Source: Candidatus Sulfotelmatobacter sp.
GTDB taxonomy: Bacteria > Vulcanimicrobiota > Vulcanimicrobiia > Vulcanimicrobiales > Vulcanimicrobiaceae
Direction: 5' to 3'
Length of the DNA stretch: 37,058 nucleotides
Assembly: GCA_035504415.1 (NCBI GenBank)
Contig: DATJRY010000018.1
Coordinates: 1 to 37,058 of the forward strand
Both the position numbers and the translations under genes were made by a program. A model generated the notes under the pieces. It worked only from the letters and a program-made list of their open reading frames with translations, was not told where the DNA came from and made no database searches. Shown in pieces: positions 4,685 through 30,946 of the stretch (position 1 is its first letter; each line of letters starts with the position of its first letter).

Positions 4685-6772
4685 CTAGACGCCGACCACC
4701 GTTTGGATGAGGTGGCGAGCGAACGGCACCCCGATACCGGTTACCAGGTCGTAGCCGACGCCGGCCGTGTACTGTACCGTCGGCGTGGGATACGGGGTCG
4801 CCCCGCTGCACGTTCCGTTGACTTCGCAACCCGGCATGGTGTTGGTCCCGAAGGTCACGTCGTAGAACGAGAACGGGTACTCCGTCGCGTTGTTGTAGAT
4901 GCCGTAGAAGTACGGCGCCGCGTTGCCCAGGCGATAGGGCTTGGCCCCGGTCGCCTTCGCGCACGACGGCGCCTGCGAGCAGGCCTGGAGCACGAGTGCC
5001 CACATGGCCGCCGCTTCCGGCGCCGCGACGCTGGTGCCGCCGTACGTCGACACCGTTGCGCCGGTGAAGTCCGTGTTGGCCAGCACGCCGACGCCGCTGT
5101 ACGGATCGCCTTCCAGCGAGATGTCGGGTTGCGAGCGGCCCGAGGTCGGCACGTTGGTGCCGGTCTGCCACGGCGGCACCGGGGTGACGGTGGACGTTCC
5201 GCCGCCGCTCGCACCGCCGGAGTTGGTCTGCGTACCCCAGGCCGTGATCGGCCCGGTGTACTGTCCGGCGTTGTTGAGCGGGACGAAGACGCCGCCGACC
5301 GAGGTCACGCTGACGTCGCCCGACGGATACGAGACGCACGGCGTGTTCTCGAGCGAGAGCGAGTACGGCGCGCAGCCGACTTCGCCTTGATCGCCGGAGG
5401 AGACGAACACCGCGATGCCTTCCGCCGCCAGCGCCGCGAACTCCGAGGGGCCGAACCCGACGGGGTCGTACGCGCCGCCGACGTTCTGGTTGTAGAACCC
5501 GTTGAGCATCTCGGGACCGCCGTAGCTCAGCGAGAGCACGTCGGCCGTGTTGTCCGCGATTGCCTGCTGGATCTCGTCGTCGGACTCCGCCAGACCCTGA
5601 TAGTCGTAGCCCAGGCCGGTGCTCGGGTCGGGCGAGCAATCCGCCGCGCCGTCGCCGCATTCGACCGGCACGTACGCCAAGTAGAACAGGATGTTGGCGT
5701 TGTACGCGAGCGAGGCTTGCTCGGTGTCGATCTGCGCCTCGTAGTCCTCGGGATTGCAGGTCGCCGTCGGCGACTCCGACGGATCCGTATACGGGCTGCT
5801 GGCCTGATTGCACGGCGCGGTTACCGGCGGCGGCGTCGCCGTCGGCGAGCCCGCGTAGCCCCAGCCCAAGCTGTTCAGCGCGTTCTGCGAGAGCACGGGA
5901 ACCTCGGTCAGCGTGCCGGAGCCGCCGGCGACGCCGCCGCCCGGGAACCCGTACGTCGAGTGGAAGACCTTGAAGTCGTTGTATCCGAACGTCGCGTCGA
6001 TCGGTCCGGTGCCGATGATCCCGATCGAGATGCCGGTGCCGGTGTAGCCGGCCGCGTACGCGCTGGTGTAGTCGAAGGCGCGCGCGATCTGCTGCGGCGT
6101 GTTGCCGCCGGTCGAGTTCATCTGCGGGCCGCCGCTGGCGCCCTGGACGAACTGCCGGTGCTTGGCCTGCAGATCGATGACCGCGTCCGCGATGTCCGTT
6201 ACGGGGAGCGCCTTGGTGAACGTGATGTTGCCGGTCGGCGCGATCAACGTGTGTCCTTCGGAGCTCTTGTAGAACGAGAACGTCGTTCCGAGCGCTTGCG
6301 CGAACTGTGCCGGCGTGCCGGCGACCGTGAGCGCCAAGCGCTGCGGGAAGCCGCCGACCTTGAGGCCGTACGACCCGAAGTAGTTCGCGACGGTGACGTA
6401 GTCGCTCTTCGACGCCCCGAACATGTCGCCGATTTGGCTGGCCGTCAGGAACTGACGGTACGTGCCGCTGCCCGGCTTGTTCGCGGCGGCCGCGTAGGCG
6501 ATCAGCCCTGCGGCGTTGCGCTGGTTGACGACGACGTGCATGACCAGGCCGCCGATGTTCATCGCGGAGCCCGTCAGCTTGGCGGTCGAGGTGAACTTCG
6601 CGCTCGGTTTGAGCGTGCGCGTCAGGGCCGCCGAGGGCGTCGACGGACCGACGTTGTTCGAGCCGGTGGAGGGCACCGCGTGCGCGCCGCCGCCGCCGCC
6701 GGAGCAGGCCGCGAGGCCGCCGACGAGCGCGAGCGCCACCAGACGCCGCGTGATTGCAAGGGAGCGCATCAC
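4685..6772 (-). CDS. Sedolisin-family (S53) serine-carboxyl peptidase, lipoprotein precursor
   Basis: A 695-residue exported acid-type endopeptidase. Residues 1-23 are a lipoprotein signal ending in LAAC (Cys23), followed by five Gly and a Ser/Thr/Pro-rich linker. A pro-kumamolisin-type activation domain follows (about 55-205). The catalytic domain (about 225-695) shows the S53 Glu/Asp pair in EAQID (Glu345, Asp349), the oxyanion Asp461 in SSGD and the nucleophile Ser581 in GGTSVAAP. The C-terminal YDVTFGTN and GYDLVTGIG segments resemble the calcium site of the family. Start: GTG at 6770-6772, next to an ATG at 6767-6769, with GGAGG at 6782-6786. The start overlaps the stop of the upstream lipoprotein gene (GTGATG). 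Local acid proteolysis at the cell surface is likely. Confidence 0.93.
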   Translation of the reverse strand: MMRSLAITRRLVALALVGGLAACSGGGGGAHAVPSTGSNNVGPSTPSAALTRTLKPSAKFTSTAKLTGSAMNIGGLVMHVVVNQRNAAGLIAYAAAANKPGSGTYRQFLTASQIGDMFGASKSDYVTVANYFGSYGLKVGGFPQRLALTVAGTPAQFAQALGTTFSFYKSSEGHTLIAPTGNITFTKALPVTDIADAVIDLQAKHRQFVQGASGGPQMNSTGGNTPQQIARAFDYTSAYAAGYTGTGISIGIIGTGPIDATFGYNDFKVFHSTYGFPGGGVAGGSGTLTEVPVLSQNALNSLGWGYAGSPTATPPPVTAPCNQASSPYTDPSESPTATCNPEDYEAQIDTEQASLAYNANILFYLAYVPVECGDGAADCSPDPSTGLGYDYQGLAESDDEIQQAIADNTADVLSLSYGGPEMLNGFYNQNVGGAYDPVGFGPSEFAALAAEGIAVFVSSGDQGEVGCAPYSLSLENTPCVSYPSGDVSVTSVGGVFVPLNNAGQYTGPITAWGTQTNSGGASGGGTSTVTPVPPWQTGTNVPTSGRSQPDISLEGDPYSGVGVLANTDFTGATVSTYGGTSVAAPEAAAMWALVLQACSQAPSCAKATGAKPYRLGNAAPYFYGIYNNATEYPFSFYDVTFGTNTMPGCEVNGTCSGATPYPTPTVQYTAGVGYDLVTGIGVPFARHLIQTVVGV

Positions 6773-10798: not shown

Positions 10799-11884
10799 GT
10801 GAGCGACGCCGCCTCGCTCGACGCCCGCATCCTGGCGGCGATCGACGCGTACGCGCTCGACGACGCGGCGTTCCTCGCGCTGGCGCGCGATCTGTTCGCA
10901 TTTCAGGTCGCGCACGACGCACCGTATGCGGCGTACGCGCGCAGCCTGGGCTTCGACGCGGACCGGTTGCCGGATCGGGTCGAAGACATCCCCGCCGTTC
11001 CGTCCGCGGCCTTCAAGGAAGCGCGGCTGGCGACGTTTCCGCCGGAGCGGACCGCGCTGTGGTTCGAGACCAGCGGCACGACGCAAGGCCGCGGCGGCCG
11101 CCACGAGTTCGACACGCCGCGGCTGTACGAGGCGGCCCTGTTGGCGTCGTTCGACCGCCTGTTGCTGGGCGACGGCGCGCGACTGCGCTACCTGCAGCTG
11201 GTCCCCGATCCGCGCGAACGGCCGCACAGCTCGCTGGGCTACATGATGCGGGTGGTCGCGCGGGAGCGCGGCGACGGCGAGGAGGGCTGGTACTTGCACG
11301 ACGACGCGCTCGACGTCGAGCGCTTCGTGCACGACGCGCGCGCGGTGAGCGACGCCGGCAGCCCGGTCTGCGTCGCGACGACGGCCTTCGCGCTGGTCGC
11401 GCTGCTCGACGAGCTCGACGGGCGCGGCATCGCGCTGCGGCTGCCGCCCGGCTCGCGCGTCATGGAGACGGGCGGCTTCAAGGGCCGCACCCGGGTCGTC
11501 GAGCGCGCCTGGCTGTACGAACAGGCCGCGGCGCGGCTGGGCGTCCCGATCGGCTCGATCGTCGCCGAGTACGGGATGACCGAGCTGTCCTCGCAGTACT
11601 ATGACGCGCCGCGCACGCGCGGGCGGATCGAGCCGCGGGTCAAGACGCCGCCGCCGTGGCTGCGACCGATCGTCGTCGACGGCGAGGGCCGGCCGGTCCC
11701 GGCCGGCGTCGTCGGCGCCCTGCGCCACGTCGACCTGGCCAACCGCGGCTCCGTGATCGCGATCGAGACCGAAGATCTGGGCGCGATCGTCGAGGACGGG
11801 ATCGTCCTGATCGGACGCGAGCAGGGCGCCGAGCTGCGCGGCTGCTCGCTCGACGCCGAGACGCTGCTGGCTCGCCGGGGCTGA
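10799..11884 (+). CDS. LuxE-like acyl-protein synthetase (adenylate-forming)
   Basis: A 361-residue member of the LuxE/PaaK-like adenylate-forming group. In luminous bacteria LuxE activates fatty acids as acyl-AMP and passes the acyl group to a cysteine for reduction by LuxC. Visible motifs are the phosphate-binding loop TSGTTQG at 91-97, followed by RHEFD, and EYGMTEL at 257-263, a strong LuxE-family signature. The C-terminal sub-domain is short (RPIVVDGEGRPVP to LIGREQG), as in LuxE. The GTG start at 10799 follows the previous stop by one base. A LuxC-like reductase lies two genes downstream and no luciferase is present, so a non-luminous acyl-reduction role is expected. The substrate is unknown. 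Confidence 0.88.
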   Translation: MSDAASLDARILAAIDAYALDDAAFLALARDLFAFQVAHDAPYAAYARSLGFDADRLPDRVEDIPAVPSAAFKEARLATFPPERTALWFETSGTTQGRGGRHEFDTPRLYEAALLASFDRLLLGDGARLRYLQLVPDPRERPHSSLGYMMRVVARERGDGEEGWYLHDDALDVERFVHDARAVSDAGSPVCVATTAFALVALLDELDGRGIALRLPPGSRVMETGGFKGRTRVVERAWLYEQAAARLGVPIGSIVAEYGMTELSSQYYDAPRTRGRIEPRVKTPPPWLRPIVVDGEGRPVPAGVVGALRHVDLANRGSVIAIETEDLGAIVEDGIVLIGREQGAELRGCSLDAETLLARRG

Positions 11885-11956
11885 CGGCGCGACGGACGGC
11901 TGCCGGGCTTCCGACAAACGTCCGTCGAATGGTATACCAGACCGCGCGTCTCGCCT

Positions 11957-11961
11957 GGAGG
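11957..11961 (+). promoter_or_regulatory. Shine-Dalgarno deciding a TTG start
   Basis: GGAGG lies 9 bases before the TTG at 11971. It fixes the start of the ketopantoate/opine-dehydrogenase-like gene just ahead of its Rossmann motif, although the frame is open further upstream into the luxE-like gene. A TATACC at about 11934-11939 could be a -10 element for this gene but lacks a good -35 partner. Confidence 0.5.
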
Positions 11962-11970
11962 GCTTTCTGC

Positions 11971-13038
11971 TTGAGCACCGTCTACCGGACCTTGATCCTC
12001 GGAGCGTCGTATGGGTCGCTCCTCGCGACGAAGCTGCTGTTGGCGGGACACGACGCCACGCTGGTCTGCCTCCCCAACGAGGTCGAGGCGATCAACGCCC
12101 GCGGCATCCGCGTGCGCATGCCGATCAAGGGGCGCGACGGGCTGCTCGAGGTCGACTCGCGCACGCTGCCGGGGACGCTGCGAGCGGCCGGGCCGTCCGA
12201 GGTCGACCCGGCGGACTTCGACCTGGTCGCGCTGGCGATGCAAGAGCCGCAGTACCGCTCGGCGGGGGTGCGTGAGCTGCTCGACCGGGTCGCGACCACG
12301 CGCGTGCCCTGCATGTCGATCATGAACATGCCGCCGCTGCCGTACCTGGCGCGCATTCCGGGGCTCGACACGAGCCTGCTGCACGACTGCTACACCGACG
12401 CGGCCGTCTGGAGCAGCTTCGATCCGGCCACGATGACCTTGTGCAGCCCCGATCCGCAGGCATTCCGTCCGCCCGACGAAGAGATCAACGTCCTCCAGGT
12501 CACGCTGCCGACCAACTTCAAGGCGGCGCGCTTCGACGACGACGGGCACACCGCGATGCTGCGCACGCTCCAGGCCGACATCGAAGCCAGCCGCTTCGCG
12601 AGCGACGTCGAGCTGCCGGTCAAGCTGAAAGTGCACGACTCGGTGTTCGTGCCGCTGGCGAAGTGGGCGATGCTGATCACCGGCAACTACCGCTGCGTGA
12701 CGGCGTCGGGTCCGCGCGCGATCCGCGAAGCGGTCTGGGACGATCCCGATCAGTCGCGGGCCGTCTACGATTGGGTCCGCTCGCTCTGTGTCGATCTGGG
12801 CGCCGTCCCCGAAGACCTGGTGCCGTTCGAGAAGTACGCCTCGGCCGCGCAAGGGCTCACCCGTCCGTCGTCGGCGGCGCGCGCGCTGTTCGCCGGCGCG
12901 CCCAACATCGAACGCGTCGACAAGCTCGTGCAGGGCATCGCCGCGCAGCGTGGGATGCGCAACGCCGTCCTCGACGAGACCGTCGAGCTGGTCGACCTGC
13001 AGCTCGCCGTCAATCGCGCACAGACCGCCGTGGCCTGA
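11971..13038 (+). CDS. Ketopantoate reductase/opine dehydrogenase-like NAD(P)-binding protein
   Basis: A 355-residue protein with a Rossmann N-terminus: TLILGASYGSLLATKLLLAGHDATLVC, glycine motif at 11-16, then residues like those that contact the adenosine ribose. This matches the N-domain of 6-phosphogluconate-dehydrogenase-like enzymes such as ketopantoate reductase and opine dehydrogenases. The C-terminal half is helical (KLKVHDSVFVPLAKWAMLITGNYRC, about 210-235). Ketopantoate reductases are about 300 residues, so this is longer and probably has another substrate. It sits between luxE-like and luxC-like genes, which suggests it acts on the same metabolite, but that is context only. I give no gene symbol. 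Confidence 0.65.
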   Translation: MSTVYRTLILGASYGSLLATKLLLAGHDATLVCLPNEVEAINARGIRVRMPIKGRDGLLEVDSRTLPGTLRAAGPSEVDPADFDLVALAMQEPQYRSAGVRELLDRVATTRVPCMSIMNMPPLPYLARIPGLDTSLLHDCYTDAAVWSSFDPATMTLCSPDPQAFRPPDEEINVLQVTLPTNFKAARFDDDGHTAMLRTLQADIEASRFASDVELPVKLKVHDSVFVPLAKWAMLITGNYRCVTASGPRAIREAVWDDPDQSRAVYDWVRSLCVDLGAVPEDLVPFEKYASAAQGLTRPSSAARALFAGAPNIERVDKLVQGIAAQRGMRNAVLDETVELVDLQLAVNRAQTAVA

Positions 13039-13045
13039 GCGCCGG

Positions 13046-13558
13046 ATGGCGAAACGCCGCGGCGTCGCCGCACCCGACACCAGCTGCGTTCCCGTTCCGC
13101 AACGCGACGGCGGCTTCGCCGTCGAGCTGCGGTTTCGCCTCGATCCGGGTGCTCCGCCCGATCGCGTCGACGCGCTGCAACGGGCGCTGCGCCTGCGGCC
13201 CGAGTCGATCACGGTGCAATTCGCGTACGAGCCGCGGGCGCGCGGCCTGCGCATCAGCGGGCTCGAGGTCGGCGAGGTTTTCACCTACGCGACCCGCGTC
13301 GCCGACGCGATTCGCGAGATCGGGGACCTCGTGCGCGACGAACCGCCGCCCGCGCGCACGCCCGCGCGTTCGGTCGAAGACCGCGCCCGCCCCGCGGTGA
13401 CGATCGAGACGACCGAACAGCGGTGGGCGTATGAGCCCCCCGGCTCGTTCTTGGTCGAGCCGCCTCCGCCGACACGGGTCGAGCGAGCCCGCGCGTCGGC
13501 GCGCGCGCTGGTGGCGCGCATGACCGGGCGTAAACCGCGCGCCGACGACGCCGGCTAA
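13046..13558 (+). CDS. Conserved-context protein of unknown function
   Basis: A 170-residue protein I do not recognise. The ATG at 13046 is 7 bases after the stop of the dehydrogenase-like gene. The N-terminal half (about 15-95) looks like a small alpha/beta domain: FAVELRFRLDPGAPPDRVDALQ, then RPESITVQFAYEPRARGLR and a helix with ATRVADAIREIGDLV. The second half is Pro/Arg/Glu-rich and probably disordered, with WAYEPPGSFLVEPPPP near 130-145 and a basic C-terminus. There is no signal peptide or membrane segment. Its position just before the luxC-like gene, with 7 bases between them, suggests a partner or scaffold for the acyl-reduction genes; this is inference. Confidence 0.7.
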   Translation: MAKRRGVAAPDTSCVPVPQRDGGFAVELRFRLDPGAPPDRVDALQRALRLRPESITVQFAYEPRARGLRISGLEVGEVFTYATRVADAIREIGDLVRDEPPPARTPARSVEDRARPAVTIETTEQRWAYEPPGSFLVEPPPPTRVERARASARALVARMTGRKPRADDAG

Positions 13559-13565
13559 CCAGCCG

Positions 13566-14783
13566 ATGTCCGACGGGGCGCTGCGCGCGCTGCCGGCCGC
13601 GCGCGTCGTCGGGTTCGTGGCCGACGCGGCCGAACGCTGGGCCGACGCGGACTTCGCGCCGCGCGTGCGCGCGACGCGCGCGATCGTCGACCGGCTCGGC
13701 TACAGCGAGCCGGTCGTCGACTACGCGCTCGACCGCCTCTTCTTCGGCATCACCCGCGCATCGCTCGAAGCGACGATCGTCGCCGAGCTCGGCAGCCTCG
13801 CCGCGCTCGACGGTCCGGTCGCACGCCACGGCACACCGTCCGGCTGGGCACGCGGCGTCGATCGCGCGGTGATCGTCAGCAGCGACACCACGATCGGCGT
13901 CGCGCTCGTCCCGGCGGTCTTCGCGCTCTGCGCGAAGTGCGACCTGGTCGTGAAGGACCGCAGCGACGCGCTCGTGGCCGCGTTCTTCGCCTCGCTCGCC
14001 GAAGAGCATCCGGCGTTCGCGCACGCGGCGCTCGCGCGCAGCTGGTCCGGGGGCGAGGATCCCGGCGAAGACGCGCTGTTCGCGAGAGCCGACGTCGTCG
14101 TCGCGTTCGGCCGTGACCAGACGCTGCGCGCGATTCGCGCGCGCTCCGGCGTCCAGACGCGCTTCGTTCCGTTCGGCCACCGGATCAGCGTGGGCCGGCT
14201 GCACGCCGCCGAGGTCGCCGCTGCCGATGAGGCACTGCTCGCGGGGATCGCGCGCGATGCGCTGCTGTACGACGGCGAAGGCTGTCTTTCGCTGCACGCC
14301 CTGTTCGTCGAGGCGGACGACGTCGAGCTCACGGAGTTCGCGGTCCGGCTCGCCGCCGCGTGCGAGCGCGTCGCCGTCGAGTTTCCCGCCGGGCGTATCG
14401 ACGCCGCGCGCGGCGCGCGCGCCGCCGCCTACCGGCAGCTGGCGGCATTCCGCGCCGCGAGCGGTCGCGGCGCCGTGCTGCGCGCCGCCGACGCGACCAT
14501 CGTCGCCGAGGCCCCGCTCGACGATCCGCTACCGCTGGTCGCGCGTACGCTGCCGATCTACCGCGGCGACGACGCGACCCTGGCGGCCTACGTCGCCGCG
14601 CAGCGGCTTCCCGTCCAGGCACTCGGCGTCGCGCACGTCGACGACGCCGCGATCGCGCTCGCCGCGCGGCTGGGCGCCGTGCGCGCCGCCGCGCTGGGCA
14701 CGATGCAAGACCCGCCGCTCGCCGGCCGCCACGGCGGCGAACAGCGCATCGCCCCGTTCGTCCGCTGGATCGACGCTCGCTAG
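13566..14783 (+). CDS. LuxC-like acyl-CoA/acyl-protein reductase
   Basis: A 405-residue protein of the LuxC acyl-CoA reductase family, which reduces activated acyl groups to aldehydes with NADPH through an acyl-cysteine intermediate. The key segment is IARDALLYDGEGCLSLHALFVE, where Cys240 aligns with the catalytic LuxC cysteine (family consensus DQQGCLSPQ). FVPFGHRISVG at 200-210 and SSDTTIGVALVPAVFALCAKCDLVVKDRSD (about 105-134) also match the aldehyde-dehydrogenase-like NADP-binding fold of LuxC. It is somewhat shorter than the roughly 480-residue Vibrio LuxC. The LuxE-like partner is at 10799-11884 in the same direction. Aldehyde formation is likely; chain length and purpose are unknown. 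Confidence 0.82.
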   Translation: MSDGALRALPAARVVGFVADAAERWADADFAPRVRATRAIVDRLGYSEPVVDYALDRLFFGITRASLEATIVAELGSLAALDGPVARHGTPSGWARGVDRAVIVSSDTTIGVALVPAVFALCAKCDLVVKDRSDALVAAFFASLAEEHPAFAHAALARSWSGGEDPGEDALFARADVVVAFGRDQTLRAIRARSGVQTRFVPFGHRISVGRLHAAEVAAADEALLAGIARDALLYDGEGCLSLHALFVEADDVELTEFAVRLAAACERVAVEFPAGRIDAARGARAAAYRQLAAFRAASGRGAVLRAADATIVAEAPLDDPLPLVARTLPIYRGDDATLAAYVAAQRLPVQALGVAHVDDAAIALAARLGAVRAAALGTMQDPPLAGRHGGEQRIAPFVRWIDAR

Positions 14784-14820: not shown

Positions 14821-15039
14821 ATGACACCGAAGCGAGTTGAACTGCACGTCAGCGAGGAGACGGCCGAGCAATTGAAGCTGCGCGCCACCTTCGAGCGTCG
14901 CTCCGTGAACGAGATCGTCGACGATGCCATCCAAGAGTATGCGGAGGCGCATCCGATCTCGCGGGAGCGCATGGTCGAGATGGCGCGTGCGATTGCCGAA
15001 GAGGATGCTTCGCTGCTTCAGACGCTCGCTGACGCTTAG
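14821..15039 (+). CDS. Ribbon-helix-helix type antitoxin
   Basis: A 72-residue protein. The N-terminal strand KRVELHVSEETAEQLKLRA followed by helices (RRSVNEIVDDAIQEYAEAH) fits a ribbon-helix-helix DNA-binding fold (about 4-45). The C-terminal tail (REMVEMARAIAEEDASLLQTLADA type, about 47-72) would wrap the toxin. The TAG stop overlaps the GTG start of the downstream Doc-like gene (TAGTG), a standard layout for antitoxin then toxin. GC content is lower than in flanking genes, consistent with horizontal arrival. The antitoxin class is inferred from fold pattern and context. Confidence 0.8.
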   Translation: MTPKRVELHVSEETAEQLKLRATFERRSVNEIVDDAIQEYAEAHPISRERMVEMARAIAEEDASLLQTLADA

Positions 15040-15419
15040 TGAATTACTTCACCGAGGACGACCTTATCGCGTTTTACGAGGCTACCATCGGGCCCGCAGT
15101 CCTTCGTTATCGCGATGGCTTAGCATCCGCCGTTGGTCGACCGGGCCAAAGCGTTTTTGGCGAGGATGCTTACCCAACGCTCGCCTTGAAGGCGGCGGCG
15201 CTCATGCAGTCGCTTGCGCAAAATCAGCCGTTCGTCGACGGGAACAAGCGGATCGCTTGGATTTGTGGAAAGCTCATGCTTCAGCTCAACCGACTGACGA
15301 TTCGCGCTACGGACGAAGAGGCGCTCGATCCGTTCGCGAATCGGATTGCTCGTGGCATGAGCGTGGAAGAGCTTGGTGCATGGATCGAGCATCATGCTTC
15401 GCCCTACGAGCCGTCGTAG
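15039..15419 (+). CDS. Doc/Fic-family toxin (death-on-curing type)
   Basis: A 126-residue Fic-fold protein like phage P1 Doc, which phosphorylates elongation factor EF-Tu and stops translation. The core loop at 62-71 reads NQPFVDGNKR, followed by IAW. GEDAYPTLALKAAALMQSLA precedes it, the typical Doc lead-in. The usual catalytic His at the start of the HxFxDxNKR motif is Gln63 here, while Asp67, Asn69, Lys70 and Arg71 are kept. NQ-type loops occur in some Doc homologs as far as I recall, so the protein may belong to a variant subfamily rather than be dead. It starts at a GTG at 15039 overlapping the antitoxin stop. GC is lower than the neighbours. Confidence 0.88.
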   Translation: MNYFTEDDLIAFYEATIGPAVLRYRDGLASAVGRPGQSVFGEDAYPTLALKAAALMQSLAQNQPFVDGNKRIAWICGKLMLQLNRLTIRATDEEALDPFANRIARGMSVEELGAWIEHHASPYEPS

Positions 15420-15430
15420 CATCTGACCTC

Positions 15431-16747
15431 ATGGCGCCGTATCATTTACCCGCCGACGAGTTGGAATCGGTCGTCACGGCGATTCCGGGGCCGCGCTCGC
15501 GTGCGCTCGCGGAACGGCTCGCGCGCTACGAAGCGCCGGGCGTCACCTATCTGGGCGACGACTATCCGGTGTTCTGGGAGTCGGCCCGCGGTGCGCTCGT
15601 CGTCGACGTCGACGGGAACCGCTATCTCGACCTGACCTCGGCGTTCGGCGTCGCGGCGACCGGTCACACCAATCCCGCTGTCGTGGCCGCGATCGAGGCG
15701 CAGGCGCGCATGCTGATCCACGGGATGGGCGACGTGCATCCGACCGAGGTGCGTACCCGGCTGCTCGAACGGCTGGCCGCCATCGCTCCCGGCGACCTGA
15801 CGAAGTCGTTCCTCTCGACGGCCGGCGCCGAAGCGGTCGAGTTCGCGCTCAAGACGGCGCTGCTCGCGACCGGCAAGTCGCGTTTTCTCGCCTATCACGG
15901 CGCCTATCACGGGCTGACGCTCGGCGCGCTCGAAGTCATCGGCATCGACAAGTTCCGCGCGCCGTTCGCGCCGCTGGTCGCCGAGCGCGCGACGTTCCTG
16001 CCGTACCCCGGTGCCGAGACGACCGCCGACGCCGCGCTCGACGCCGTCCGGGTGGCGCTCACGCGGGATCCGGACATCGGCGCCATCGTGCTGGAACCGA
16101 TCCAAGGGCGCGGCGGCGTCATCGTTCCGCCGGACGGCTTCTTGCGCGGGCTGCGCGCGCTGTGCGACGAACGCGGAGTTTTACTGGTGCTCGACGAGAT
16201 CTACACCGGCCTGGGCCGGACCGGCACCTGGTTCGCTTGCGAGCACGACGGCATCGTCCCCGATCTGCTCTGCTTGGGCAAAGCGCTGGCCGGCGGTGTG
16301 CCGCTCTCGGCGACGATCGGTACGCCGCGGGTCGTCGACAGTTGGCCGCGCAGCGCCGGCGAAGCGCTGCACACCTCGACCTTCTTGGGCAACCCGCTGG
16401 CGTGCGCGGCCGCGCTCGCGAATCTCGACGAGCTCGAACGGCAGGACGCGCTGGGGTTGGTGCGCACGCGCGAACCCGTCTTGGCGGAGCGGCTGCACGC
16501 GTTGCGTGCGCTGCCCGGCGTGCGCGACGTGCGCGGCCGCGGCTTTCTCTGGGCCGTCGAGTTCGGCACGGCGGCGCGCGCGAACCGTATCGTCGTGCGC
16601 GGGTTGGCGCGCGGCCTGGTCCTGCTCCAATCGGGGCCGACCGGCACGTCGATCACCCTCGCGCCGCCGCTCACCATCGCCGACGAGCAACTCACCCGTG
16701 CCCTCGACCTGTTCGAGCACACGGTGCGTGAGGAAGGAACACGATGA
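15431..16747 (+). CDS. Class III PLP-dependent aminotransferase
   Basis: A 438-residue aminotransferase of the GABA/ornithine/acetylornithine class. The PLP lysine is Lys284 in LLCLGKALAGGVPLSA. Asp255 in LLVLDEIYTGLGRTG binds the pyridine nitrogen. LSTAGAEAVEFALK (128-141) binds phosphate and HGAYHGLT (156-163) is the cofactor aromatic segment. The amino donor and acceptor cannot be told from sequence; 4-aminobutyrate-type and diamine or aldehyde substrates are all possible. The ATG at 15431 begins 11 bases after the toxin stop. Its own stop overlaps the next gene (ATGA). If the toxin pair is a later insertion, this gene was once next to the luxC-like gene, and fatty aldehydes could be its acceptor; that is a hypothesis. 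Confidence 0.9.
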   Translation: MAPYHLPADELESVVTAIPGPRSRALAERLARYEAPGVTYLGDDYPVFWESARGALVVDVDGNRYLDLTSAFGVAATGHTNPAVVAAIEAQARMLIHGMGDVHPTEVRTRLLERLAAIAPGDLTKSFLSTAGAEAVEFALKTALLATGKSRFLAYHGAYHGLTLGALEVIGIDKFRAPFAPLVAERATFLPYPGAETTADAALDAVRVALTRDPDIGAIVLEPIQGRGGVIVPPDGFLRGLRALCDERGVLLVLDEIYTGLGRTGTWFACEHDGIVPDLLCLGKALAGGVPLSATIGTPRVVDSWPRSAGEALHTSTFLGNPLACAAALANLDELERQDALGLVRTREPVLAERLHALRALPGVRDVRGRGFLWAVEFGTAARANRIVVRGLARGLVLLQSGPTGTSITLAPPLTIADEQLTRALDLFEHTVREEGTR

Positions 16748-17781
16748 GCAAGCTCAAGGTCGGGATCGTCGGCAGCGGCTTCGGCGGCGCGGTGCACGCG
16801 CCGGCGTATGCGTTGCATCCGCGGTTCGAGGTGGTGGCGATCGCCTCGCCCACCAGTGCCGAGCGGGTCGCGCGCGAGCGCAAGATTCCGCACGCCTTTC
16901 CCTCGGTCGAGGCGATGCTGGCCGGGGTCGAGCTGGACGTCGTTTCGGTCGCCTCACCGCCGTTCGACCATCACCGCTCGGTCGTGGCCGCGCTGGGCGC
17001 CGGCAAGCACGTCCTGTGCGAGAAGCCGTTCGCGCTGACGGTGGCGGAGGCCGAAGAGATGACGGCGCTCGCGGTCGGCACCGGCGTCGCGAACGTGATG
17101 GCGTTCGAGTTCCGTTACCTGCCGCAGGTGCGCGCACTGGCCGAGCTGATCCAAAACGGGCACTTGGGCGCGCTGCGCGAGATCGAGGTCGCGCGGCTCG
17201 GCGGCGATCTGCTCGAACGGGTCACCACGCGCGAGCGCGGCTGGTGGTTCGACCGCTCCAAGGGCGGCGGCGTCGCCAACGCCTACATGCCGCACTTCTT
17301 CGACTTGGCCAACCACCTGGGCGGACGCGCGGCGCGCGCGACGCACGGCTTGCTGCGCACCGCGAACGCGCTGCGCACCGACAAGGACGGCCGTTTCGAG
17401 AGCACGGTCGCCGACGGCGCCTTCGCCTTCGTCGACTACGGGGACGGTCTGGTCGGACGCGTCAGCGCCGACTCGACGACGGTCGTCGAGTCGGTCACCA
17501 TCGCGGTGCACGGCGAGGTCCGCAGCGCGATCGCCAGCGGGACGTCGCTCGGCGACCTGACGCTGTTCACGATCGCCGACGACGAGGAAGACGAGCTCGA
17601 GGTCGCGGCGCTCACCTACGCCAAGCACGGCGTCGTCCACCCGAACATCCCGGCGTTCCTCGAATTGCTGGACGGTTTCGCGCGTCGCATCGACCTGGGC
17701 GCGAGCGACGCGCCGACCTTCGCCGACGGCCTCGCGACCCAGCGGCAGCTCGACGCGATCGGCTACGGCACGACCGGCTGA
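16744..17781 (+). CDS. Gfo/Idh/MocA-family NAD(P)-dependent oxidoreductase
   Basis: A 345-residue dehydrogenase. The Rossmann motif GIVGSGFGGAVHAPAY (7-22) is followed by the family signature CEKPFALT, with the catalytic-site EKP at 93-95. A second-domain segment GGGVANAYMPHFFDLANHLGG (about 177-197) carries the His and Asp expected for substrate binding. Members oxidise or reduce sugars, inositols and related cyclic substrates; the substrate here is unknown. The ATG at 16744 overlaps the aminotransferase stop (ATGA), so the pair is co-translated. A dehydrogenase plus class III aminotransferase could convert an alcohol or keto-sugar to an amine, which is inference. It is convergent with the S8 protease, 25 bases away. 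Confidence 0.9.
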   Translation: MSKLKVGIVGSGFGGAVHAPAYALHPRFEVVAIASPTSAERVARERKIPHAFPSVEAMLAGVELDVVSVASPPFDHHRSVVAALGAGKHVLCEKPFALTVAEAEEMTALAVGTGVANVMAFEFRYLPQVRALAELIQNGHLGALREIEVARLGGDLLERVTTRERGWWFDRSKGGGVANAYMPHFFDLANHLGGRAARATHGLLRTANALRTDKDGRFESTVADGAFAFVDYGDGLVGRVSADSTTVVESVTIAVHGEVRSAIASGTSLGDLTLFTIADDEEDELEVAALTYAKHGVVHPNIPAFLELLDGFARRIDLGASDAPTFADGLATQRQLDAIGYGTTG

Positions 17782-17806: not shown

Positions 17807-20101
17807 CTACGGTAGGTTGGGGTCGCTCAACGCCGTCGCCATCGCGCGGTAGACGTTGAGACGGCCGCAGCCCTGGTTCGGATCGTTGAGGTTGTCGGCG
17901 GTGGAACAGAGCAGCTGCTTCATCTTCGCGGTCGACTGGTAGGAGCTGTTGACCGACAAGATCAGGGCAGCGGCACCGGCGATGTGTGGGGTCGCCATCG
18001 AGGTGCCCTCGATCTCGACCTGACAGTCGGTGGCACCGCTGCTGCCGGGATAGTCCGGTCCGCAATAGCCGGCGAAGTTCTCGTCGAACGGCGTGCTGGT
18101 CCAGATGTTGGCGATCCAGTGCAGATCGTCGGCGTCGTTATCGTCGCTGGCGTCACCGCCCGGCGCCACGATTCCCCACGACGAAGCACTGCCGAACGAG
18201 TCGGTTCCTGACGGACCGTAGTCGGTGTAATCGGTCACGTACTCGATCGGCGAGCTGCTGCTGCCGCCGGTGTGGCCGGTGCCGTTGAGCTGGCCGTCGT
18301 CGAGCGCGGTCGCGCCGGCGGCGATGACGCCGGTGTCGCACGCCGGTGTTTCGACGGGCGGTCCGTAGCCGTTACCGGCCGCCGCGACGACGACCACGTT
18401 GGCGGCGATCGCGTTCTCGACCGCTTGACCCTCGGCTTCGTCGTCGTCGCCGCCGTCGCCGTTCTGCGGCGTACCGCACACGCCGCCGCCCAAGCTCATG
18501 CTGATCACGTTGGCGCCGTTGTCGACGGCGTCGGTAATCGCCGAGGCGATGTCGGCCGGCTCCGCCCCGCACTGCGGGTCGGTCGTGGTGTCGCTGGTGC
18601 AGTTGTCGTTCGGCGTCGGGAAGACACGGTAGCCCATGAGCGACACGTTGCCGCCGTCGCCGAGATATCCCAGCGAGTTGTTCATGTCGGCAGCCGCGAT
18701 GCCGGCGACGTCCGTGCCGTGGCCCATCGGATCGGTCTCGAAGCTCGAGCTCGATTGCGACGTACCGGCCGCGTTGGTGATGAAGCAGTGCTGGTAGACG
18801 AGCTTCGAGCTCAGCTCCGGATGCGTCGGGTCTTCGCCGGTATCGATGATCGCGATCTTGACGGCGGACAACCCGAGCGCGTTCGCGTTGGTGATCCCGC
18901 TGCCGTTGCCGGGCTGCGAGTACCCGAAGGCGTGCTCGAGGCCGACCGCGTGCATGTCCCATTGTCCGGGAATGGACGCCGTCTCGGCATACGGCAGCTG
19001 CTCGTAGGTGGACGTGCTGCCGGTCTGCGCCGCGGTGAAGCCGTCGAAGTACGGGTCTCGAGGCCAGTACGGCTGGCTCACGGTCGCGGCTCGGCGGCGC
19101 ACGCCGCTCTGCGCGACGCTCAGGACGCCCGGCTCGGCACGCAGCAGCGCTGCGGCGGCGGCCACGCTCTGGCCGGCCGGAACGCCGACGACGCGCGTGA
19201 CCCGGCCGGTGTGCGAGAAGGTCAGCGAGCGCATCAGGCGCACGCCCGCCGCGGACTCACGCTGCGCGACCGCCGCCGCGTTGCGCGAGAGCGTCGCCGC
19301 GTCGTAGGTGACCTCGAGGACGTTCGGCGAGGCACCCAGCGCCGGTTGGCGTCCGTGCAACGCGCGACGCACCGGCCGCGTCGACGACGCGACCGCGACC
19401 GCGTTGGCCGACTGATCGTCGGTCGGGCAGATGAACGCCTGCGGGTTGTCGGTCGGGCTCGGCGAGGGCTGCGGCGAGCTCGAGAGGCCGTACAGCAACA
19501 GCACGTAGGTCTTGCCCGCCAGCACTTGCTGCGTGTCGCCCGAGACCGAGGCGAAGCTGACCGTCGTGCCGCTCAGCGTCCCCGGTCCGAGGATCGTGTT
19601 CCAGCCGGCGCTCGGCGTCGTCGGGTCGTAGAACGCGATGTACAAGTACGGTTCGCTTTGCGCGACCGAGGCGGGAATGGTCAGCGAAAAAGCCGGCGAC
19701 GCGGTGAAGCTGAGCGTCGTCGACGGTGTGAAGGCCAGGTAGACCAGCGGATCGATCCCGCTCACGCCGATGTTCTGCGCGCGCCGGTGCACGCTCTGGA
19801 CGGTCGGCGTCCCGTTGGGCTGCTGGGTCGTGAAGGTGGCGCTGAGCGTCGTCGTGACAGACGTCGGCGGCATCGTGATCGTGCCGCTGTAGCCGGCGGC
19901 CAGCGGCCCGAGCGTCGTCGGCTCCGACGCGGTACTGCTGACCGGGATCGACAGGCTCTGGCTGTTCGTCGGCGTCGGCGTCGGCGTCGGATTGGTCGGC
20001 GGCCCGACGTGCCCGCCGCCCCCTCCGCCGCCACAGGCGGCGAGGCTGACTGACGCCGCCGCAACGAACGCGGCGAGCCGGACGAGGACGCGATGCTTCA
20101 C
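17807..20101 (-). CDS. Subtilisin-like (S8) serine protease, lipoprotein precursor, long paralog
   Basis: A 764-residue exported protease from the GTG at 20099-20101, which has GGAAGG 7 bases upstream. Residues 1-23 are a lipoprotein signal (SLAAC, Cys23), then seven Gly and a Thr-Pro linker. A beta-rich domain absent from its neighbour occupies roughly 55-210. A propeptide-like region follows (about 260-340). The catalytic triad is Asp420 (IAIIDTGEDPTHPEL), His461 (MGHGTDVAG) and Ser701 (GTSMATPHIAG), with the oxyanion Asn577 (AAGN). It lies directly downstream of a paralog on the same strand. It probably degrades extracellular protein at the cell envelope; the extra N-terminal domain may give anchoring or specificity. 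Confidence 0.93.
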   Translation of the reverse strand: MKHRVLVRLAAFVAAASVSLAACGGGGGGGHVGPPTNPTPTPTPTNSQSLSIPVSSTASEPTTLGPLAAGYSGTITMPPTSVTTTLSATFTTQQPNGTPTVQSVHRRAQNIGVSGIDPLVYLAFTPSTTLSFTASPAFSLTIPASVAQSEPYLYIAFYDPTTPSAGWNTILGPGTLSGTTVSFASVSGDTQQVLAGKTYVLLLYGLSSSPQPSPSPTDNPQAFICPTDDQSANAVAVASSTRPVRRALHGRQPALGASPNVLEVTYDAATLSRNAAAVAQRESAAGVRLMRSLTFSHTGRVTRVVGVPAGQSVAAAAALLRAEPGVLSVAQSGVRRRAATVSQPYWPRDPYFDGFTAAQTGSTSTYEQLPYAETASIPGQWDMHAVGLEHAFGYSQPGNGSGITNANALGLSAVKIAIIDTGEDPTHPELSSKLVYQHCFITNAAGTSQSSSSFETDPMGHGTDVAGIAAADMNNSLGYLGDGGNVSLMGYRVFPTPNDNCTSDTTTDPQCGAEPADIASAITDAVDNGANVISMSLGGGVCGTPQNGDGGDDDEAEGQAVENAIAANVVVVAAAGNGYGPPVETPACDTGVIAAGATALDDGQLNGTGHTGGSSSSPIEYVTDYTDYGPSGTDSFGSASSWGIVAPGGDASDDNDADDLHWIANIWTSTPFDENFAGYCGPDYPGSSGATDCQVEIEGTSMATPHIAGAAALILSVNSSYQSTAKMKQLLCSTADNLNDPNQGCGRLNVYRAMATALSDPNLP

Positions 20102-20197
20102 GAGGGTGCCTTCCGTGGACAGGGTTGGGCCCTGGCTTCCACCCGCCCGCCAGCCGTCCTCGCGGCCGGGCGGAAGCCTCACGGAATCCTTAGGTCC

Positions 20198-22084
20198 TTA
20201 GATGCGGACCTTCGCGCTCGCCGCCGGCGGGCTCGGATCGCCCACCGCGATTGCCATCGCGCGGTAGACGTTGAGGCGACCGCACCCCTGGTTCGGATCG
20301 CCGATGTTGTCGGCGGTCTGGCAGAGGAGCTGACGCATCGCCGCCGGCGACTGGTATGGCGAGCTCAGCCCGCCGGTCGCGGAGAGGATCAGTGCCGCTG
20401 CGCCGGCGACGTGCGGGGTCGCCATCGACGTACCGGCGATCTCGGTCCGGCAATCGGGGTTCGTCGCCGACGCCTCGTTCGGGTAGTCGTTGGTGCAGGC
20501 ACCCTCATAGGTCGTGTCGCTCGACGAGGACATGAACGGCGTCGAGGTCCAGATGTTCTCGATCCAGTGCAGGTCGTCGTTGTCCAGATCGCTCGACGGG
20601 TCGCCGCCCGGCGCGACGATCCCCCACGACGAGGGGCTCTGGTAGGTATCGCCGGTTCCGTAGTCCGTGTAACTGGCCACGTACTCGACCGGCGAGGTCG
20701 ACGTGCCGCCCGAATGGCCGCTGCCGTTGGCCTGGCCGTCGTCCAGTGAGGTCGCGCCGACCGCGATCACGCCGCTATCGCAGCCCGGTGCTTCGACCGG
20801 CGGCCCGCTACTGTTGCCGGCCGCGGCCACGACGACGATGTTCGCGGCGATCGCGTTGGCGACGGCCGCCCCTTCGGTCGGATCGTCGTCACCGTTGGGC
20901 GCATCGCCGCTGTCGCCGCACTCATCGCCGCCCAAGCTCATGCTGATGACGTTGACATGCTGCGCGACCGCGTCGTTGATCGCCGAGGCGATGTCGGTCG
21001 TGCTGCTGCCGCACTGCGGATCGTTCTCCGCCTCGCTCGGATCGTTCTCGCAAGCATCGTCCGGCGTCGGGAACACGCGATACGCGTAGATCGAAACGTT
21101 GCCGCCCGCCCCCGCGAAGCCGAGACCGTTGTTCATATCGGCGGCCGCGATGCCGCTGACGTCCGTCCCGTGGCCGTCCGGATCGGTCTCGTAGTTCGAG
21201 GTCGACTGCGCGTTGTTCGGGTTCGAGATGAAGCACTTCTGGTAGGCGATCTTGCCGCCGCCCAGCTCCGGGTGCGTCGGATCCTCGCCCGTGTCGATGA
21301 TCGCGATCTTCACCGACGACGAGCCGAGCGCGTTCGCGTTCGTGATGCCGCTGCCGTTGCCCGACTGCGAGTACCCGAAGGCGTACTCGGAGCCGATGGC
21401 GTGCATGTCCCACTGACCGGGAACGTCGGCCGACTCGGCGTAGGGCTCGACCTCGTACGTCGAAGGCTGATCGGTGTAGCCCAGCGACGGGTCGACCGAC
21501 GCGTTCTGCGCGGCCGTGAAGCCGTCGAAGTACGGATCGTTGGGCCAGTATGGCGTCGTGACCGCGTCCGCGTGACGGCGGCCCGCGCTGCGCTGCACGG
21601 CCAGAACGCCGGGCTGGTTCTTGAGCGAGGCCTCGACCGAAGCCAACTGCGTCGCCGGGACCGAAAGAACGTGCATCACCTGGCCCAGGTGCGAGAAGGT
21701 CAACGAGTTGACCAGCTTCGCGCCGCTCGCCGTCTCGCGCTGCGCGATCGACGCGCTGCTGCGCTGCGCCGTCGAGCTGGCGTACGTCACGACCAATTGC
21801 GTCGTCGACGCCGGCGCATTGCGCTGACCGCGTGAACGCACTGCCATGTGCGTGACCTCGCCGCGCGCATGCGCTCCGGCACCGCGCGCGACCGACGAGG
21901 TCGAGTCACTGGTGGGGCACGTGAAGTCCGCCTGGTCGAAGCTGCCGCTCGGCGTCGCGGTCGGCGTCGGCGTCGGCGTCGCGCTGGTGGGCGGCGTCGT
22001 CTTGCCGCCGCCACCGCCGGAGCAGCCGCCGAGCAACGCGGCAGCCAAGAAGGACGCTAAAAGCGTACGAGCAGTTCGAGACAA
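20198..22084 (-). CDS. Subtilisin-like (S8) serine protease, lipoprotein precursor, short paralog
   Basis: A 628-residue exported protease. I start at the TTG at 22082-22084 because GGAGG lies 7 bases before it; an ATG at 22111 has no such site. The lipobox LLGGC places the lipidated Cys at 21, followed by Gly5 and a Thr-Pro linker. A propeptide-like domain spans about 95-165 (NSLTFSHLGQVMHVLSVPA). The triad is Asp264 (IIDTGEDPTHPEL), His305 (DGHGTDVSG) and Ser553 (GTSMATPHVAG), with oxyanion Asn424. Long stretches are near-identical to the adjacent protease, including GYSQSGNGSGITNANALG, so the two arose by tandem duplication. It lacks the beta-rich insert of the long paralog. Confidence 0.93.
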   Translation of the reverse strand: MSRTARTLLASFLAAALLGGCSGGGGGKTTPPTSATPTPTPTATPSGSFDQADFTCPTSDSTSSVARGAGAHARGEVTHMAVRSRGQRNAPASTTQLVVTYASSTAQRSSASIAQRETASGAKLVNSLTFSHLGQVMHVLSVPATQLASVEASLKNQPGVLAVQRSAGRRHADAVTTPYWPNDPYFDGFTAAQNASVDPSLGYTDQPSTYEVEPYAESADVPGQWDMHAIGSEYAFGYSQSGNGSGITNANALGSSSVKIAIIDTGEDPTHPELGGGKIAYQKCFISNPNNAQSTSNYETDPDGHGTDVSGIAAADMNNGLGFAGAGGNVSIYAYRVFPTPDDACENDPSEAENDPQCGSSTTDIASAINDAVAQHVNVISMSLGGDECGDSGDAPNGDDDPTEGAAVANAIAANIVVVAAAGNSSGPPVEAPGCDSGVIAVGATSLDDGQANGSGHSGGTSTSPVEYVASYTDYGTGDTYQSPSSWGIVAPGGDPSSDLDNDDLHWIENIWTSTPFMSSSSDTTYEGACTNDYPNEASATNPDCRTEIAGTSMATPHVAGAAALILSATGGLSSPYQSPAAMRQLLCQTADNIGDPNQGCGRLNVYRAMAIAVGDPSPPAASAKVRI

Positions 22085-22091
22085 CGTCGGA

Positions 22092-22096
22092 CCTCC
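22092..22096 (-). promoter_or_regulatory. Shine-Dalgarno deciding a TTG start
   Basis: The minus strand reads GGAGG here, 7 bases before the TTG at 22082-22084. It supports the shorter start for the short S8 protease. Confidence 0.5.
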
Positions 22097-22176
22097 GGAG
22101 GATCGGTCCAACGACGGACCGGGCTTTCCCTCATGTACGTATCGGCCGGATGTTAATCCCGGCTGAGAACATGAAG

Positions 22177-29357: not shown

Positions 29358-30946
29358 GCCCCGCGCGCCTATTTTGGGGCGCGACGCTGCTGGTCGCGCT
29401 CATCGGCCTCGTGCTGCGCCTCAAAGGCATCCACGATCCGATCTTCGATCATCCCGGCTGGCGGCAAGGCGACACCGCCGCGATCGCGCGCAACTTCGCG
29501 CAGCTGCAGTACAACCCGCTCTTCCCGCAGACCGACTACGACGGGCCGCCCCCGAACTACGTCGAGCTCGAGCTGCAGATCGTGCCGTTCCTGGCCGCCA
29601 CGCTCTACAAGCTGTTCGGCGTGCACGAGATCTTCGGCCGGCTGATCTCGCTGTGCTTCGGCGTCGGCACGATCATCATTCTCGCCGCCTTCGGTCGCTG
29701 GCTGTTTCGCAGCGCGCTCGCGGGCGTTGCGGCGGCCGCGCTGTTCGCGATTCTGCCGGGGGCGTGGTACTACAGCCGGACGTTCATGCCCGACACGACG
29801 ATGGTCTTCTTCCTCACCGCGGCGCTGTACGCGGGCGGACGATGGATCGTCGACGACGACGCGCGTTCGTGGCGCGGCTGGTGGCCGGCCGCGCTGCTGC
29901 TGGCGGTGGCGTTCCTCGCCAAGCCCGTCGCGGTGCTGGGGGCGATACCGCTCGCGGCCGCCGCTCTCGCGCACCTGGGCTGGCGCCGCACGCTGACGAG
30001 CGTGCAGCTGTGGGCACTGGCGGCGGTGGCGTTCGTGCCGCTGGGCATCTACGATCACATCGTCGCCTCGCACGCGGAGTGGCATTGGGCCAGCGGCATC
30101 ACCAAGCTGCACGTCATCCCCTCGCTGGTCGGCGCGCTGACCTCGCCGGCGGCGTTCGCCGCGAAGGCGCTGGCGTTCGGCCACGCGCTGCGCATGCTGG
30201 CGACGACGATGCTCGGGCCGGTCGGCATCGTGCTGGCGATCCTAGGCTTCTGCGTCCCGCTGCGCTCGCGCAGCGACGCGCTGCTGTGGGGCTGGCTCGC
30301 CGGCGGGCTGCTCTATGCGTACGTCGTCGTCACCGTCGAGCGGGTCGACTACTACCTGTATCCGCTGCTGCCGCTGGGTGCGCTGACGGCGGGCCGCTTC
30401 GCGGCATTCGTGGCCGAGCGCTGGGGTGACGAGTCGCAGCGGCGCGCGACGCTGGCGGGGCTGGGCGCGATCGTATGGCTGTGCGCGCTCGTGGGCGGCT
30501 ATCACCAGATCGCGCCGTACTGGCAGTGGAGCAAAGCCAACTACGGGCGTGCCAAACAGCTCGATGCGACCCTCGCGCCCGGCGCGCTGATCGTGATGGG
30601 GCACTACGACCCCTCGATCCTATACACGATCGACCGCAAGGGCTGGGAGGAAGACCCGCACCTGTGGACGCCGTTCGACGAGCAGAGCGCGATCCGCAAA
30701 GGCGCGCGCTACTTCGTCGCCGTCGAGAACGCGCGCTTGAAGGAGACGAACCTCGAGCTGTACTGCTGGCTGAGCCGCTTCCCCGTGCTCGACCCGGCGG
30801 CGGCCTGGCCGGTCTACGAGACCGATCCCGCGAAGGTGCTCCCCGGCGCGGAAGAACGCTGGCGCGCGTTCCGCCGCCGCGAAGCGGCCGGAACCTACGC
30901 TAACTGGAGGCAGGTATGGAAGTCGGCACCCGACCCGTGCCGGTAA
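29354..30946 (+). CDS. ArnT-like membrane glycosyltransferase (GT-C, GT39/GT83 type)
   Basis: A 530-residue polytopic membrane protein. After the first membrane helix comes HPGWRQGDTAAIARNF (about 34-49), whose Asp is the catalytic residue expected in the first periplasmic loop of ArnT/PMT-type enzymes. YYSRTFMPDTTMVFFLTAAL (about 136-155) matches the conserved second loop. The last 100 residues are soluble and extracytoplasmic. It probably transfers a sugar from a polyprenyl carrier to lipid, protein or glycan; the acceptor is unknown. The GTG overlaps the GtrA stop (GTGA). Its own 3' end overlaps the next gene by 31 bases, and contains that gene's ribosome-binding site. Confidence 0.87.
   Translation: MSPARLFWGATLLVALIGLVLRLKGIHDPIFDHPGWRQGDTAAIARNFAQLQYNPLFPQTDYDGPPPNYVELELQIVPFLAATLYKLFGVHEIFGRLISLCFGVGTIIILAAFGRWLFRSALAGVAAAALFAILPGAWYYSRTFMPDTTMVFFLTAALYAGGRWIVDDDARSWRGWWPAALLLAVAFLAKPVAVLGAIPLAAAALAHLGWRRTLTSVQLWALAAVAFVPLGIYDHIVASHAEWHWASGITKLHVIPSLVGALTSPAAFAAKALAFGHALRMLATTMLGPVGIVLAILGFCVPLRSRSDALLWGWLAGGLLYAYVVVTVERVDYYLYPLLPLGALTAGRFAAFVAERWGDESQRRATLAGLGAIVWLCALVGGYHQIAPYWQWSKANYGRAKQLDATLAPGALIVMGHYDPSILYTIDRKGWEEDPHLWTPFDEQSAIRKGARYFVAVENARLKETNLELYCWLSRFPVLDPAAAWPVYETDPAKVLPGAEERWRAFRRREAAGTYANWRQVWKSAPDPCR

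Follow-up and report, generated by a model that had tools for sequence, protein, structure and literature searches.

We analysed a window of 37,058 nucleotides (positions 1 to 37,058 of contig DATJRY010000018.1, assembly GCA_035504415.1) from Candidatus Sulfotelmatobacter sp., a member of the Vulcanimicrobiaceae, and identified within it a LuxE-like acid-activating enzyme, a LuxC-like reductase and a class III aminotransferase encoded by a gene cluster that is conserved across the class (Vulcanimicrobiota/Eremiobacterota). Judged from its sequence and its distribution, this cluster is the best candidate for a missing acid-to-amine step in this class of soil bacteria. The three enzymes would probably convert 7-carboxy-7-deazaguanine (CDG) to preQ1 via 7-formyl-7-deazaguanine, replacing QueC and QueF of the queuosine pathway, and on balance we favour the view that preQ1 arises in the class by a third route, one that involves no nitrile and uses enzymes unrelated to QueC and QueF. 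The conserved genes lie in the window as follows:

10799..11884, + strand: luxE-like adenylating enzyme, 361 amino acids; meets the PF04443 cut-off; predicted to activate an acid, with Cys349 as carrier.
13566..14783, + strand: luxC-like reductase, 405 amino acids; meets the PF05893 cut-off; predicted to reduce a thioester to an aldehyde via Cys240.
15431..16747, + strand: class III aminotransferase, predicted to convert an aldehyde to an amine; PF00202 at E 1.4e-102, 343.9 bits; start ATG taken from the sequence.
16744..17781, + strand: Gfo/Idh/MocA oxidoreductase, a conserved neighbour in the families of the class designated f1 and f2; PF01408 at E 2e-27.

Translation confirmed that the luxE-like and luxC-like genes are intact and lie on the same strand, as had been predicted from the DNA letters of this window, and that the LuxE-like protein contains the motifs TSGTT (residues 91-95) and EYGMTEL (257-263) and an RGCSLD motif with Cys349 near its C-terminus, the last of which the original prediction had not listed, while the LuxC-like protein contains Cys240 within the catalytic segment DGEGCLS. 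The former scores 34.6 bits against Pfam LuxE (PF04443, gathering cut-off 24.9) and the latter 126.8 bits against Pfam LuxC (PF05893, cut-off 21), and both miss the corresponding NCBIfam bioluminescence equivalogs, LuxE NF052244 at 30.8 versus 550 bits and LuxC NF052251 at 31.8 versus 750 bits. Cys240 is invariant (74/74 class members) and Cys349 is kept in 95 of 96. The sole solved relative of the LuxE-like protein identified by sequence is LuxE of the Photobacterium phosphoreum LuxC-LuxE fatty acid reductase (PDB 7xc6), and Cys349 aligns with the C-terminal GCSL of its chain E. AlphaFold gave confident models of both proteins (mean predicted local distance difference test score, pLDDT, 90.3 for LuxE-like and 94.6 for LuxC-like). 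The LuxC model has the aldehyde dehydrogenase-like LuxC fold and matches LuxC of 7xc6 with a Z score of 39.5 and a root-mean-square deviation of 2.1 over 392 residues, well above all other aldehyde dehydrogenases, which score about 30. The catalytic cysteines of both proteins are in place. The system differs from that of 7xc6 in lying far under the bioluminescence cut-offs, in having a class III aminotransferase as fixed partner and in the heteroaromatic acid proposed as its substrate.

The LuxE model adopts the fold of PaaK and the aryl-acid adenylases, its best structural matches being PaaK (Z 25.9), ClxA, NatL2 and EhpF (Z 22), although identity to PaaK-type enzymes and EhpF is about 15% and the proposed acyl acceptor of the LuxE-like protein is its own cysteine rather than coenzyme A. 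EhpF and a partner reductase together act on a phenazine acid, a precedent for the reduction of a heteroaromatic acid. Two acidic residues of the LuxE-like protein, E223 and E257, are invariant in the class, and from an alignment of ANL motifs we infer that they lie in the acid pocket, where they do not suggest a fatty acid as substrate. Given the established chemistry of the three protein families, the cluster implies an ATP- and NAD(P)H-dependent module that would take an acid through an aldehyde to an amine.

To place the cluster in context we surveyed 60 genomes of relatives, with synteny counted on 45 named contigs long enough downstream, and scanned named genomes for luxE, retaining the best 80 loci, almost all from this lineage. 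luxE was detected in 53 of the 60 relatives, nearly always as a single copy; the 53 include one genome, G056, with a remote match only (24% identity). In that genome, which belongs to another class and is without QueC, a GNAT-like gene, the divergent luxE-like gene and an apparent luxC-like start occur together (G056:C76, L158, 4735-7378). The conserved order in the class is luxE, luxC and the class III aminotransferase, mostly followed by the Gfo/MocA oxidoreductase. In 42/45 long contigs the distance from luxE to luxC is no more than 2 kb, and the two genes mostly abut or overlap (gap below 100 bp in 39/45); the aminotransferase follows luxC in 43/45 and Gfo comes next in 43/45. Family f3 keeps the trio with no adjoining Gfo, and has a major facilitator superfamily (MFS) transporter downstream. 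In some genomes luxE stands by itself next to ribosomal genes, apart from luxC. MetY and a CoA-binding protein were considered as module parts and are treated as bystanders, because they are missing from f2 and f3 loci and were left behind where luxE relocated.

Against this conserved order, the operon of this genome holds four additional open reading frames (ORFs):

11971..13038 (alternative ATG at 11929), + strand: ApbA-like dehydrogenase ORF, an insertion; Pfam ApbA at 18.3 bits, under the cut-off of 22.2.
13046..13558, + strand: ORF of 170 amino acids of no assigned family, an insertion; no significant Pfam or NCBIfam match.
14821..15036, + strand: antitoxin-like ORF of the ribbon-helix-helix (RHH) type, part of an inserted toxin-antitoxin cassette; RHH_1 at 20.3 bits, just below the cut-off of 20.5; low G+C at third codon positions (GC3).
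15039..15419, + strand: Doc toxin-like ORF, the other member of that cassette; meets the Fic/DOC and DOC_P1 cut-offs.

The RHH-Doc cassette, with its low GC3 (14821-15419), splits luxC from the aminotransferase. For the ApbA-like gene the 60 relatives gave a single convincing match, on contig C3 of a genome (G015) whose luxE is on another contig, C2; the 170-residue ORF has no match in the 60, and the ApbA-like ORF, the 170-residue ORF and the Doc gene occur in none of the 80 luxE loci. Since these insertions are absent from the operons of relatives, the window contains the conserved operon broken at two points, with the ApbA-like, 170-residue, RHH and Doc ORFs outside the conserved unit. The original prediction had read luxE, a ketopantoate/opine-dehydrogenase-like gene, the 170-residue ORF and luxC as a four-gene acyl-reduction pathway. 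That order was found in no relative examined and the four genes nowhere co-occurred, the middle two being insertions specific to this genome. Its luxE and luxC were correctly recognised while the aminotransferase and Gfo/MocA genes just downstream were overlooked, and the dehydrogenase-like ORF exists but its family assignment falls short at 18.3 bits. The suggestion that the LuxE/LuxC pair reduces an acid to an aldehyde for a purpose other than bioluminescence is supported, though not as part of the four-gene unit.

The operon aminotransferase (residues numbered from 15473) belongs to the same class III family as PatA and ArgD and shares their pyridoxal phosphate-binding lysine, Lys270, present in 70/70 class members; PatA is its best PDB sequence match at 258 bits. 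It differs from them in having Arg213 in place of Glu and Leu148 in place of Arg (ArgD) or Lys (PatA), both invariant in the subfamily (70/70). Position 395 is mostly Ser, Thr or Ala, whereas PatA and the genome's own ArgD carry an arginine there, which in this family binds the donor carboxylate; among the 70 class aminotransferases none has arginine among the top residues at this position. The genome carries separate ArgD-, PatA-like and HemL-type genes, and a heme or arginine role for the operon enzyme was rejected in view of the ArgD- and HemL-type genes.

In the queuosine pathway the acid CDG is converted to the aminomethyl compound preQ1 by QueC and then QueF (PMC5372724), and we picked it as a core pathway in which an acid group on a heteroaromatic ring has to become an aminomethyl group. 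The searches for QueD, QueE and QueF were made after the queuosine prediction had been written down. Tgt was found in 20 of the 21 genomes searched, and that of the window's genome exceeds the queuosine-type cut-off (469 versus 306.75 bits) and keeps Val233 and Cys158, the positions of the bacterial, preQ1-type enzyme. QueD (PTPS) is present in 21/21 genomes, the own copy at 93.1 bits against a cut-off of 89.25, and a QueE-like radical S-adenosylmethionine gene lies near queD in all 21; two of the QueE-like proteins were scanned and for both the best-matching models were QueE, below cut-off. With QueD, a QueE-like protein and a bacterial Tgt in place, these genomes should therefore make CDG and use preQ1. 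Organisms that salvage precursors are described as lacking queD, queE and queC together (PMC5372724); as queD and queE are retained here, that pattern is not matched. QueF, by contrast, was found in 0/21 genomes by a search that was positive in 8 of 14 control genomes, and luxE-bearing genomes yielded weak, partial or below-cut-off matches in place of a bona fide QueC. Strong QueC matches (E 6e-44 to 9e-70) came from four genomes of sister classes that lack this luxE, and both of those checked pass TIGR00364. Counted over the relatives, QueC occurs in 4/8 luxE-negative and 0/52 luxE-positive genomes, a naive p of about 1.4e-4 for genomes that are not independent. Downstream, QueA was seen in the one relative for which it is shown (G036), where the gene, cut by the locus end, scores 325.4 versus 324 bits with NF001140 and 254.8 versus 267.45 bits with TIGR00113. 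In f3, queD and queE lie 15-19 kb from luxE in 4/4 genomes, a weak argument given the relatedness of these genomes.

The proposed module resembles the QueC and QueF steps in starting from CDG with ATP activation and in ending at preQ1, and differs in its unrelated protein families, in an aldehyde intermediate rather than the nitrile formed by QueC and turned into the amine by QueF, and in a transaminase as the source of nitrogen. What was observed is the order and conservation of the genes, the catalytic residues and folds of the enzymes and the distribution of Que proteins; beyond this, the substrate, the product, the succession of reactions and the direction in which the aminotransferase works would be as follows. 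CDG supplied inside the cell by QueD and QueE would be adenylated by the LuxE-like enzyme to CDG-AMP and its acyl group loaded as a thioester on the enzyme's own C-terminal Cys349. The LuxC-like enzyme would accept the acyl group on Cys240 and reduce the thioester to the aldehyde 7-formyl-7-deazaguanine, which the aminotransferase would turn into preQ1, to be taken up by the bacterial Tgt with QueA acting next. The open-access literature searched, which omits some journals, yielded no biological route through 7-formyl-7-deazaguanine; going by their titles, the three papers in which 7-formyl-7-deaza compounds occur deal with making preQ1 analogues and queuosine derivatives by chemical means.

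Plasmids of Pantoea, Azospirillum, Priestia, Niallia, Lactiplantibacillus and Pseudomonas carry the nearest named homologues of the LuxE-like protein (30-38% identity). The annotated ones form luxE-luxC-SDR operons (SDR, short-chain dehydrogenase/reductase), most with an NMT1/THI5-like-binding-protein ABC transporter or an NCS2 permease; these share the adjoining LuxC with the class studied here, yet have an SDR and a transporter where the class has the aminotransferase and Gfo. A thiamine pyrophosphate (TPP) riboswitch lies upstream of luxE on the same strand at 6/7 plasmid loci; it precedes luxE-luxC at L141, L142, L143, L145, L146 and L147, on plasmids of Pantoea, Azospirillum, Lactiplantibacillus, Pseudomonas silvicola and Niallia. 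The plasmid operons are likely to reduce a carboxylated thiamine precursor. These neighbours of the nearest relatives, together with the aryl-acid adenylase fold matches, point to heteroaromatic acid substrates, and suggest that this LuxE subfamily acts on N-heteroaromatic rather than fatty acids. We found no paper linking LuxE/LuxC with thiamine riboswitches or with queuosine in the open-access literature searched.

The module might instead act on another acid, such as a fatty acid, an amino acid or a metabolite precursor, giving an amine lipid or metabolite while unrelated, unrecognised enzymes take CDG to preQ1. The generic chemistry, the position of the module away from que genes in f1 and f2, the MFS transporter after it in f3, which could mean export, and the use of fatty acids by LuxE and LuxC proper all fit this idea; yet the QueC/QueF gap calls for precisely this chemistry and occurs in these very genomes, and E223 and E257 in the inferred acid pocket do not suggest a fatty acid, so that we hold it to be rather unlikely. 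Another division of labour within queuosine synthesis, in which LuxE and LuxC make 7-formyl-7-deazaguanine and another enzyme, for example Gfo as an imine reductase, makes the amine, with the aminotransferase serving elsewhere, would account for the unusual donor site (Arg213 for Glu and no arginine at 395) and for Gfo as the conserved neighbour of the aminotransferase in f1 and f2. It appears improbable, as f3 retains the aminotransferase beside luxC but not Gfo. The TPP riboswitches adjoining the nearest named LuxE relatives raise the salvage of a thiamine precursor, a pyrimidine or thiazole acid being reduced and then aminated. However, the single TPP riboswitch of the class, in the two genomes examined, precedes a ThiC-like gene, no riboswitch was found at its luxE locus (Rfam at gathering thresholds was empty at the loci, and a permissive scan of the operon gave one match at chance level), and residues 223/257 are Glu/Glu in the class versus Asp/Met in the plasmid group. 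The substrate in the class should therefore be other than a thiamine precursor; thiamine salvage by the module was rejected here and we give it very little credence. Least credible of all is the idea that the ApbA-like dehydrogenase and the 170-residue protein form, with LuxE and LuxC, a functional four-gene pathway of acyl reduction: in this genome the genes are same-strand neighbours separated by short gaps, but the order recurs in no relative examined, and the two middle genes match 1/60 (unlinked to luxE) and 0/60 relatives.

Several observations weigh against conversion of CDG to preQ1 by the LuxE-LuxC-aminotransferase module. The QueE-like proteins fall under the QueE equivalog cut-offs (the own copy at 110 versus 240 bits), and the mutual exclusion of luxE and QueC is close to one phylogenetic switch. 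One genome, G052 (96% complete), is without both luxE and QueC, and QueC-like matches occur in four luxE-bearing genomes, below cut-off in G013 and G047 and partial in G006 and G015. No que gene lies within the operon, nor does the module cluster tightly with que genes. The amino donor is not evident from an aminotransferase without the ArgD/PatA-type arginine, and the proposed route leaves Gfo, conserved in f1 and f2, without explanation. A search of 76% of G036 (L217-L307) turned up no QueG or QueH motif, and the final queuosine step may be unusual too. As to the QueC-like matches, that of G013 is a protein of 403 amino acids (L209, 8455-9666) with a CxxCxxCC domain followed by a QueC-like domain below cut-off, and that of G047, also below the QueC cut-off, has a neighbourhood with weak defence-gene matches; by their sequences and surroundings the two do not look like standard QueC.

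Elsewhere in the window, three large protease-like ORFs on the minus strand flank the operon (4685-6772, 17807-20182 and 20198-22111), with secreted, lipoprotein-like starts and a sedolisin- or subtilase-like appearance by eye. An unassigned protein of 556 amino acids at 30916-32586 gives only a partial and weak aldehyde dehydrogenase match.

If CDG is indeed converted to preQ1 by the LuxE-LuxC-aminotransferase module, a non-homologous replacement of QueC and QueF acting through an aldehyde would constitute a new branch of tRNA-modification chemistry. It would explain queuosine synthesis in a large, mostly uncultured class, of which Vulcanimicrobium alpinus is a cultured member. LuxE/LuxC/aminotransferase clusters at present labelled as bioluminescence or fatty-acid genes would thereby gain a function. 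More broadly, the reduction of heteroaromatic acids may be a general capacity of LuxE/LuxC pairs, the TPP-linked plasmid operons providing another example.

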